From Chloroherpetonaceae bacterium (GTDB lineage: Bacteria > Bacteroidota > Chlorobiia > Chlorobiales > Thermochlorobacteraceae), in contig JANWWM010000063.1 of NCBI GenBank assembly GCA_025055975.1, positions 1 to 64,000 on the forward strand: 64,000 bases of DNA, written 5' to 3'. This document shows positions 1,711 through 4,683 of the stretch, piece after piece. The notes beneath the pieces are model-generated. The model did no database searches. It saw nothing but the letters and a program-made list of their open reading frames with translations, and was not told where the DNA came from. The number at the start of each line of letters is the position of its first letter. Position 1 is the stretch's first letter. Both the position numbers and the translations under genes were made by a program.

Positions 1711-2712
1711 ATGGGAGCGCACGTTTTTATCGCAGATAGCGAAACATTCCCAATTCTTCGTGATAATGGCTTTCTTGCCGTTTATCGTGAAGACCAAACA
1801 AGAGATCTTTGGGAGAAAACTCGCGCCGATATTTTAGCGGATTTATGCTGTTTGAGAATCGGGGACAGGATTTTTTTCTATGAAACCAACAGAGGCTTTC
1901 ATGGCATCTACCGCGTGCGTAGCCTTCCATTTACTGACGAGACAAGATTCGGTTCTGTAGGCGCAGACGCGCCATACCGCGTTTTGATAGAGCCGCTTCA
2001 TTACTTCCCAAATCCTGTCTCTGAACTTCGGGTGTTGGGACTGAAAAACTCAGCAAACGAACTCCGTTCGCTTTTCTACAAAAAAGCTCTGCAAAGAGGA
2101 AAAGCCATCACGCATCTTTTTCCTGAAGAGGAAAGGAAACTCACGGAACTTCTCTTGAAAGCAAACGATGGAGAAGCCAAATTAGCAGTGAGTTTGTATG
2201 AGCCTCACGACAAGCCTCCTATCACATTCGATTTAGAGCCAAGCGAAAACGGCGAGGTGAAATACGAAAAAATCTTGGAGGGTTGGTTGATGCAGCACAT
2301 TGATAAGCCCGAATTCAAATGTGATTTATTTCTTAGGGATTTGAACGACATAGAAACCTTTGCAAACTATGTTCCGACCAACATCGCAGGCGGCAACATT
2401 GACGTGATAGTCTATCACAAACGCGCAATGAATGGCGTAGAGATGCGCTACAAAATATCAGTCATAGAGTTAAAGAAAGGAAAAATTGACGAGAGCGCAG
2501 TTATTGAGATTGAGGAATATGTCAAGTGGGCAGGCGAACATCTTGCCAACAATGACGTTGAAATGGTGCAACCTGTGCTTATTGGAAAGAAAGTTAACGA
2601 GCGAGCGATTGCGCGTTGCAAATGCTATGGAATCAGCGGTCGCAAGCCTATCCTAATTGAGTATGCGATCTTGCCGAACTACCAAATTAGTTTCTCGAGA
2701 AAGGACTACTGA
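1711..2712 (+). CDS. EVE-like domain plus NucS/DUF91-like endonuclease (putative restriction enzyme)
   Basis: A protein of 333 residues from ATG 1711; GTG 1705, overlapping the nuoD stop, is the alternative start. The N-terminal ~130 residues (HVFIADSETF, then CLRIGDRIFFYET and GFHGIYRVRS) look like an EVE/PUA-type fold, a domain known to read modified DNA bases. The C-terminal half has a NucS/DUF91-like PD-(D/E)XK pattern: an E-x-x-LEGWL helix near 190, GGNIDVIVYH (acidic residue) and VIELKKGKIDE (E-L-K). It overlaps the first methyltransferase by one base (TGATG), so the two are probably co-transcribed. The gene is clearly richer in AT and in AGA, AAT, TAT and GAT codons than its neighbours, which points to recent acquisition. 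Family assignment is by motif reading only. Confidence 0.6.
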   Translation: MGAHVFIADSETFPILRDNGFLAVYREDQTRDLWEKTRADILADLCCLRIGDRIFFYETNRGFHGIYRVRSLPFTDETRFGSVGADAPYRVLIEPLHYFPNPVSELRVLGLKNSANELRSLFYKKALQRGKAITHLFPEEERKLTELLLKANDGEAKLAVSLYEPHDKPPITFDLEPSENGEVKYEKILEGWLMQHIDKPEFKCDLFLRDLNDIETFANYVPTNIAGGNIDVIVYHKRAMNGVEMRYKISVIELKKGKIDESAVIEIEEYVKWAGEHLANNDVEMVQPVLIGKKVNERAIARCKCYGISGRKPILIEYAILPNYQISFSRKDY

Positions 2713-3593
2713 TGCTCAACAAGTTTCTCAACAAAATCATCTGTGGCGACGCGCTTCAAACGCTTGCGCTCCTTCCTGAAAATTCCGTCCACCTCATCAT
2801 CACCTCGCCGCCCTACAACTTGAACGTTCAATACGCCAATCATCACGACGAACTCCCCTACGAAGAATACCTCGCGTGGATGGCAAAAGTCTGGGCGGAG
2901 TGTCATCGCGTTCTGGTCGAGGGCGGCAGACTTTGCATCAACATCGGCGAAAACAAACGGCAGAACATCAGCGTCCCCACGTTCAGCGCGTTCATTCAGC
3001 AATGCGTCGAGCTTAAAATGCTCTACCGTGGCACGATCATTTGGAACAAGAACAGCGCCGCCAAACATTGCGCGTGGGGCAGTTGGAACAGCCCGTCGAA
3101 TCCGCATCTCGTTCCCCGACACGAATACATCATCGTTTTTTCGAAGGGCAGATACAAGTTAGATGGCAAAGAGAGCGACAACACGCTCGATAGCGACGGC
3201 AAAGAGTTTATGGAAAGCACGCGCAGCGTTTGGAGTTTTGGAACGGAAAGCCGCCAGCGCATCGGACATCCCGCGCCGTTTCCTGTCGCGCTTCCGCGCC
3301 GATTGATTCAATTCTATTCATACAAACGTCAAATCGTTTTGGATCCCTTTGCGGGAAGCGGCACGACGGGCGTTGCCGCGCTTCTCTTGGAACGACGATT
3401 CATTTTGATCGACAACTCGAAAACCTATTGCGATCTTGCTTGTTCGCGCCTGAACGAACTCGCCGCGCAACAACGATTGTTCGCCGATTCCATCTCTCGC
3501 GTCGAGACGATTGAGCTTTCCGACATCGCAAGCGATATTGCCATCAACGCAACGCTTCATGCCAATGGACTCCATAACTCCGACGCTTTTTGA
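2712..3593 (+). CDS. DNA methyltransferase, N6-adenine/N4-cytosine type (beta order)
   Basis: A 293-residue site-specific DNA methyltransferase. The catalytic motif IV TSPPYN is at residues 31-36, near the N terminus, and the SAM-binding motif I (LDPFAGSGTTG) near residue 212. This IV-before-I order is the beta class, whose members methylate adenine N6 or cytosine N4. The sequence also has NKNSAAKHCAWGSW and HEYIIVFSKG, typical of small restriction-associated enzymes. The start overlaps the nuclease stop, and a second methyltransferase follows with overlap. Base composition is closer to the genome average than that of the nuclease. The recognition sequence cannot be read from the protein. Confidence 0.88.
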   Translation: MLNKFLNKIICGDALQTLALLPENSVHLIITSPPYNLNVQYANHHDELPYEEYLAWMAKVWAECHRVLVEGGRLCINIGENKRQNISVPTFSAFIQQCVELKMLYRGTIIWNKNSAAKHCAWGSWNSPSNPHLVPRHEYIIVFSKGRYKLDGKESDNTLDSDGKEFMESTRSVWSFGTESRQRIGHPAPFPVALPRRLIQFYSYKRQIVLDPFAGSGTTGVAALLLERRFILIDNSKTYCDLACSRLNELAAQQRLFADSISRVETIELSDIASDIAINATLHANGLHNSDAF

Positions 3594-4683
3594 AAATGAC
3601 GCGGCATTGAACGCCTGCGACGACCCTCCGATCAAAAACGGCGAAAGCCTTTCATCGCTCGTGGAGCGGCTTTTGTCGCAAGAAAGTTTGGCGCATGTCA
3701 AGCGCGAGGTTTCCAACTTGCGTCAGCGATGCGAATCGGCTTGCGACCGCGCGCGGAACGGCGCGTCTGAACTCGCCGACGCGAGCGTCAGTCCGAGCGT
3801 TCTTCTGACGCAACTCGACCAAATTCTCGACGCGCAAACGCTGGAACGCGCGCGCTATTATCTCAAACGCCTCAAAAAATCGCTCACCGAAGTCAAGACG
3901 AGCGCCATCAACGACTTGAATCTCAATCAATGGCAGGAATACGACGACGTTTTGACCGACAGCCTGTGGTTGCTCGGCAAGCGCGATTCGTCGGGCGCGC
4001 ACCACGCGGGTTATTGGGGAAATTTCGTTCCTGAAATTCCGCGCCAATTTTTCAAACGCTACACGAAGAAAGGCGATTGGGTTTTAGATGCGTTTCTCGG
4101 AAGCGGCACGACCCTGATTGAATGTCGCAGGCAAGGCAGAAACGGCGTTGGCGTTGAACTGCAACCTCGCGTCGCGTCTCTTGCCGAATCCGCGATTGCG
4201 AGCGAGCCGAATCCGCGCGGCATTCAAACGCACGTCATCGTGGGCGATGCCGCAGCGCTGAATTACGAAGCGGAACTTGCGCGCATCGGCATCAAGCGCG
4301 TTCAACTTCTCATCATGCACCCGCCGTATTGGGACATCATCAAGTTCAGCGACGACGCGCGCGACCTTTCCAACGCCCAAAGCCTCGATGCGTTCTTGGC
4401 GATGTTGGGCAAGGTGATTGACGGAACTTATCCCGTCTTGGACGACGGTCGTTACTTTGCGCTCGTCATCGGCGACAAGTATTCGGGCGGCGAGTGGATT
4501 CCGCTCGGATTTTATTCGATGCAAGAAGCCTTGAAGCGCGGCTATAAACTCAAATCCATCATCGTCAAAAATTTTGAGGAAACCAGAGGCAAGCGCAATC
4601 AGCGAGAACTGTGGCGATACCGCGCGCTCGTTGGCGGTTTCTACGTGTTCAAGCACGAATACGTTTTTCTGTTCGTGAAATGA
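3559..4683 (+). CDS. Second DNA methyltransferase (HPPYW motif)
   Basis: A 374-residue protein from ATG 3559; the frame is open upstream to a TTG at 3511, but that would overlap the preceding gene by 83 bases and adds no conserved sequence. A helical N-terminal region of about 150 residues (SLVERLLSQESL, EVSNLRQRCESACDRAR) precedes motif I (VLDAFLGSGTTLIECR, about 174-189) and a catalytic motif IV written HPPYW instead of the usual (D/N/S)PPY (about 253). The order I then IV differs from the first methyltransferase, so the two are not duplicates. Paired methyltransferases next to one nuclease often serve asymmetric recognition sites, one enzyme per strand; that is inference here. The conserved end is GFYVFKHEYVFLFVK. 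Confidence 0.8.
   Translation: MPMDSITPTLFENDAALNACDDPPIKNGESLSSLVERLLSQESLAHVKREVSNLRQRCESACDRARNGASELADASVSPSVLLTQLDQILDAQTLERARYYLKRLKKSLTEVKTSAINDLNLNQWQEYDDVLTDSLWLLGKRDSSGAHHAGYWGNFVPEIPRQFFKRYTKKGDWVLDAFLGSGTTLIECRRQGRNGVGVELQPRVASLAESAIASEPNPRGIQTHVIVGDAAALNYEAELARIGIKRVQLLIMHPPYWDIIKFSDDARDLSNAQSLDAFLAMLGKVIDGTYPVLDDGRYFALVIGDKYSGGEWIPLGFYSMQEALKRGYKLKSIIVKNFEETRGKRNQRELWRYRALVGGFYVFKHEYVFLFVK

Follow-up and report, generated by a model that had tools for sequence, protein, structure and literature searches.

Three overlapping genes behind nuoD

The window, that is, the whole stretch of 64,000 nucleotides that was analysed, corresponds to contig C85:1-64000 of a 2.68-Mb draft genome (G000). 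Directly after nuoD, three overlapping open reading frames (P0001, P0002 and P0003) were observed on the + strand, spanning 1711-4683, in agreement with the first-pass annotation of this DNA. In the following feature list and in the text, residue numbers of P0001 (D233, E255, K257, E268 and the domain limits) are counted from the GTG at 1705.

395-1708, + strand: nuoD, the gene directly before the island
1704-1711, + strand: left junction; at 1704 (nuoD stop codon), the match to G079, a congeneric genome, ends
1711-2712, + strand: P0001, EVE-NucS nuclease, 333 aa, start ATG 1711
1711-2175, + strand: EVE (PUA superfamily) domain of P0001, residues 3-157 (PF01878 and Foldseek)
2257-2709, + strand: NucS-like PD-(D/E)XK nuclease domain of P0001, residues 185-335 (Foldseek and A4 profile)
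2401-2403, 2467-2469 and 2473-2475, + strand: putative catalytic residues D233, E255 and K257 (alignment)
2712-3593, + strand: P0002, beta-order (IV...I) N6/N4 amino-methyltransferase (PF01555, 180 bits)
2805-2816 and 3342-3368, + strand: P0002 motifs SPPY (in SPPYN) and DPFAGSGTT, order IV then I
3559-4683, + strand: P0003, permuted (I...IV) amino-methyltransferase of a widespread family (PADLOC PDLC03351, 456 bits)
4087-4113 and 4318-4329, + strand: P0003 motifs DAFLGSGTT and HPPY (in HPPYW), order I then IV

The reading frame of P0001 is open from the GTG at 1705. All homologues begin with M-x-x-H-[VI]-F (alignment A7), and therefore the ATG at 1711, which had already been proposed, is taken as the start of P0001. 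The start of P0002 overlaps the P0001 stop codon by one nucleotide (TGATG), and P0003 in turn overlaps P0002. The longest P0003 frame runs from a TTG at 3511; an ATG at 3559 or 3565 is in better agreement with the homologues, and the stop lies at 4683.

The congeneric genome G079 aligns to the window with 85.8% identity over 1709 bp, ending at 1704, and carries different genes after nuoD. Restriction systems seem to accumulate on the 3' side of nuoD, which has the appearance of an insertion point. P0001 has a GC content of 44.3% (GC3 47%) compared to 53-56% for P0002, P0003 and the flanks, which confirms the earlier remark that the nuclease gene is AT-richer than its surroundings. Since its composition is unlike that of P0002 and P0003, the trio may be a recent assembly. 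In the relative G125, a restriction enzyme of the MjaI family (PF09568, 236 bits) and its methyltransferase are located shortly downstream of nuoD (L175, reverse complement, 2662-4532).

Domains of the nuclease and the two methyltransferases

For P0001, an N-terminal EVE/PUA-like region and a C-terminal PD-(D/E)XK domain like that of NucS had been proposed, and both were recovered. The PF01878 score of P0001 is borderline, with 22.2 bits on the protein (cut-off 23) and 23.9 bits, over the cut-off, in the genome scan, where model positions 24-108 align at 1807-2022. The NucS profile match of P0001 alone is also borderline and limited to the C-terminal part. Within the homologue set, PRK00809, a UPF0310/EVE model, matched 11 of 15 sequences, NucS 8 of 15 and PF01878 1 of 15. 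The best PDB sequence matches of the family profile were NucS 2vld and the EVE proteins PH1033 and MJECL36, each in the expected half (A4 profile against 2vld, E=0.008). An AlphaFold2 model of P0001 was built on A4, an alignment of 16 sequences (mean pLDDT 74.6, pTM 0.76). In Foldseek, the top six matches of this model were all EVE proteins (E 6.6e-7 to 5.5e-5), and the EVE matches comprised PH1033 (E=6.6e-7), MJECL36, Atu2648, Rpa0253 and the EVE-HNH enzyme VcaM4I (6yex, E=5.1e-5). Thus, the EVE/PUA fold, whose absence would have spoken against the first-pass annotation, is present in the N-terminal half of the structure model. NucS/EndoMS structures were matched with E 8.6e-4 to 2.4e-3 (EndoMS 5gkj, E=8.6e-4; NucS 2vld, E=1.1e-3, prob 1.00).

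The residues D233, E255 and K257 are unchanged in all 17 aligned homologues (17/17), and the Q of the Q-x-x-x-Y motif is replaced by E268 in P0001 only. P0001 shares with NucS/EndoMS (PDB 2vld, 5gkj) the C-terminal nuclease fold and the D..ExK motif; however, NucS/EndoMS possesses its own N-terminal DNA-binding/dimerisation domain in place of EVE, and the genomic context of this mismatch endonuclease is unlike that of P0001. No P0001 relatives were detected among phages (tblastn) or in viral contigs searched with the single sequence and with A1 as queries.

Motifs I and IV were found in both methyltransferases by reading the sequence, in the two different orders noted previously, and PF01555 (N6_N4_Mtase, cut-off 26.7) gave 72 bits for P0003 in addition to the match of P0002. 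In the P0003 family, H, P, P and Y of the unusual HPPYW are invariant in 11/11 aligned members and the following W is found in at least 90%. The motif had been pointed out before, and judged from this alignment it is not degenerate. The closest relatives of P0002 in the phylum share about 47% identity with it, and several of them have a ThaI-family nuclease as partner; no EVE-NucS gene was found near P0002 relatives in the ten loci examined. At one locus (L206:2327-3166), a protein with weak B3-domain and HNH matches lies beside a P0002-like methyltransferase, whose match contains a stop codon in G237.

Gene neighbourhoods of the nuclease and P0003 families

A search of genome contigs with profile A3 gave more than 550 P0003 relatives from many phyla including archaea, of which the best 80 were kept and 79 loci were scorable. 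An EVE-NucS gene is located directly downstream on the same strand in 17 of the 79 loci, and in 7 of these 17 it overlaps the methyltransferase gene by 4 nt. These nucleases belong to another subfamily (A) than P0001. In 23 of the 79, the P0003-type methyltransferase is accompanied on the same strand by a second protein, cl1 (21 downstream and 2 upstream, L125 and L131). EVE-NucS and cl1 never occur together (0/79; hypergeometric P 0.0012 for fixed totals, with relatedness ignored), and neither is found in 39/79, 3 of which end within 400 bp. The cl1 proteins exist in forms of ~212 aa and ~277 aa with conserved E, D and D-x-K (e.g., L067:6038-6697 and L081:2452-3285). The members tested against Pfam and PADLOC gave no convincing match, and a PDB search with a cl1 fold model (pLDDT 88.5) gave no significant one (best EcoO109I, E=0.09). 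Position and the D-x-K (D..DxK) motif suggest that cl1 is a putative restriction enzyme. In L045, L062, L085 and L087, methyltransferase and cl1 are separated by a small gene, whose product of 138-139 aa is a putative lipoprotein-like protein (META/HslJ-like by eye). At four loci (L064, L097, L113 and L124), a protein of one cluster is found downstream; three members of this cluster were scanned, and all exceed the cut-off of the IceA family (PF05315). L064 carries both the IceA-type and the EVE-NucS gene.

Mapped onto the methyltransferase tree, the loci whose partner is known require at least 10 switches between partners. L109 (cl1b) and L118 (EVE-NucS) form a fully supported sister pair, and their methyltransferases are 85.9% identical. 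Provided that these near-identical enzymes still share a specificity, each of the two nucleases has to cope with the same mark, most simply by being blocked by it.

Since these loci had been collected via the methyltransferase, 391 genomes of the class of G288 were in turn searched with A4 in order to remove this bias. Five subfamily-A nucleases are intact (L268, L270, L271, L272 and L273), and directly upstream of each lies an intact P0003-type methyltransferase. Of the broken nucleases, L269 and L274 occur together with an intact methyltransferase, L276 and L050 with a broken one and L277 with none; a broken nuclease beside an intact methyltransferase, as in G611 and G486, is what decay should leave behind if the methyltransferase serves as protection from the nuclease. 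A viral remnant (L254) adjoins a type I-like methyltransferase, as judged by reading the sequence. In their behaviour, subfamily-A nucleases therefore resemble a type II restriction subunit, which is at odds with the published type IV prediction. Since they occupy a restriction slot and are swapped with unrelated nucleases, methylation in subfamily-A systems is most simply explained as protective. The first-pass annotation had set its proposal against the case that homologues of the nuclease never occur with methyltransferases; in the wider nuclease family, such a link is found repeatedly. Broken nucleases are frequent in the EVE-NucS family (G288, G611, G486 and G325). This, together with the E at the conserved Q of P0001, would fit a remnant island in which P0001 is inactive or uncoupled and the methyltransferases alone act; however, P0001 has a full-length frame and retains D233, E255, K257 and the EVE core, and we consider a remnant very improbable.

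It is conceivable that P0001 and P0002 form one type II-like system which P0003 happens to follow as an orphan methyltransferase. The direct adjacency of P0001 and P0002 would fit this arrangement, and neither the closest relative of P0003 (70%, G125) nor its relatives in two congeneric genomes (55-59%) are accompanied by a nuclease. On the other hand, P0003 overlaps P0002, and it is the P0003 family and not the P0002 family that recurs with EVE-NucS nucleases. We regard P0002 as the sole partner as unlikely; being a variant of the preferred type II-like explanation, this account overlaps with it in confidence.

P0001 itself is a distant member of the nuclease family. It is 38.8% identical over 309 aa to L275 in G429, 32.5% to a plasmid protein of Halobaculum limi and about 26% to subfamily A, and its own subfamily (B) consists of these three genes as known here. 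Within 8 kb of the Halobaculum limi gene, no DNA methyltransferase is annotated, only an arsenite methyltransferase. G407 carries an intact pair of methyltransferase and nuclease A; in G429, the subfamily-B nuclease has taken the place of most of this pair, between flanks that are 92-95% identical. The P0003-type methyltransferase of G429 is truncated at about codon 141, and a further intact P0003-type gene was not detected in this genome. A P0002-like gene (47%) is present in G429 and also in its congeners. Thus, an intact adjoining methyltransferase is found in one of the three members, P0001, where the nuclease gene comes first and an extra methyltransferase is present compared to subfamily A. 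Subfamily B may not need a P0003-type partner, and a type IV reading of P0001 is thus conceivable.

According to such a reading, P0001 would be modification-dependent, its EVE domain flipping out a phage-type modified base (e.g., 5hmC) and its NucS domain cutting, and the methyltransferases would be defence-island neighbours whose marks EVE does not read. Fusions of EVE with PD-(D/E)XK domains, the architecture class of P0001, have been reported and predicted to be modification-dependent type IV enzymes (Bell, Wolf and Koonin 2020, PMC7641849); NucS or DUF91 is not mentioned there. VcaM4I, the solved EVE-HNH nuclease, depends on 5mC/5hmC (PDB 6yex, PMC7897488). Its modified-base pocket includes P24, W82 and Y130. 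It shares the N-terminal EVE domain with P0001; however, its nuclease domain is HNH and not PD-(D/E)XK, and a 5mC/5hmC dependence of P0001 would be hypothetical. The distinct composition of P0001 and the two subfamily-B members without an intact adjoining methyltransferase would also fit a type IV enzyme. Against it speak the coupling of the subfamily-A homologues to one methyltransferase family and their exchange with other nucleases, the overlaps of P0001 with P0002 and of P0002 with P0003, and the self-destruction to be expected of a nuclease that reads marks set by its own operon. We consider modification-dependent cutting somewhat unlikely.

A proposed type II-like model and its implications

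We favour a compact type II-like restriction-modification system in which EVE reads the target and is blocked by methylation, and assign this reading a probability of roughly 0.58; it is thus likelier than modification-dependent restriction, with the reservation that the subfamily of P0001 numbers three genes only. EVE and SRA domains are known to flip bases. In the proposed system, the EVE domain of the nuclease P0001 would read the target, probably by flipping a base, and the NucS-like domain would cut the DNA. P0002 and/or P0003 would methylate an exocyclic amino group (N6-A or N4-C) within this target and thereby protect self DNA from P0001; the presence of two such enzymes would be in keeping with an asymmetric site. 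We infer that P0001 cuts unmodified DNA and that its EVE domain is the target reader, and P0002, P0003 or both would presumably be cognate to it. The fold, the invariant D, E and K, the nuclease gene adjoining methyltransferases, and the coupling and nuclease exchange of subfamily A all support a type II-like system. Arguments against it are that P0001 belongs to a distant subfamily with another gene order, an extra methyltransferase and nearest relatives without an intact methyltransferase, that its composition is distinct and that E268 replaces the family Q. Earlier, it was proposed that the nuclease senses modification made or hindered by its own methyltransferases. The restriction context and the paired methyltransferases of this proposal stand, but sensing in the sense of modification-dependent (type IV) cutting is not what the subfamily-A relatives in their restriction slot suggest.

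Modification-dependent architectures turned to unmodified DNA have a precedent in LlaJI, a McrBC-like GTPase system with two methyltransferases directed at an unmodified asymmetric site (PMC12707154); in contrast to P0001, LlaJI is GTPase-based, has a B3 DNA-binding domain and lacks EVE. According to the same 2025 review (PMC12707154), modification-dependent enzymes have recruited PUA domains. A literature search that covered mainly freely available papers yielded no type II EVE enzyme. To our knowledge, all characterised EVE nucleases are modification-dependent, which is a further argument against a type II-like system.

In a few loci, IceA-family nucleases (PF05315), as in the IceA/NlaIII-HpyIM type II systems (CATG), share the slot behind P0003-family methyltransferases; these are HNH nucleases, whereas P0001 is an EVE-NucS enzyme. 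IceA1 has been placed with the CATG-specific methyltransferase HpyIM (PMC2749054, PMC13340068), and by analogy CATG might be the target of P0003, which is only a lead. CATG is under-represented in G000 (O/E 0.37; 415 kb of sampled stretches including the window). Deriving the target site from tetranucleotide avoidance was rejected, since CATG is equally low in G125 and many palindromes are avoided. In the same sampled stretches, GGCC is almost absent (24 copies, O/E 0.01) and GTAC, CTAG and CCGG are strongly avoided; avoidance in the congeneric G079 is alike (GGCC O/E 0.02).

In summary, new in this study is the recurrent coupling of EVE-NucS nucleases to P0003-type methyltransferases, with exchange against other nucleases. 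It is tempting to speculate, at slightly less than even odds, that EVE, a domain for reading modified bases, has been repurposed to recognise the target of a type II enzyme acting on unmodified DNA. This would take place within a modular system, in which at least three nucleases (EVE-NucS, cl1 and an IceA/NlaIII-like HNH enzyme) can replace each other beside one methyltransferase family, and the window would hold a second EVE-NucS subfamily with two methyltransferases. EVE nucleases are currently classed as enzymes directed against modified phage DNA. Should a large branch of them indeed provide the restriction activity in type II systems, this annotation would be wrong for that branch, and the pair L109 and L118, with nearly the same methyltransferase and different nucleases, would offer a direct view of how a PUA-type domain shifts from reading a modification to being blocked by it.
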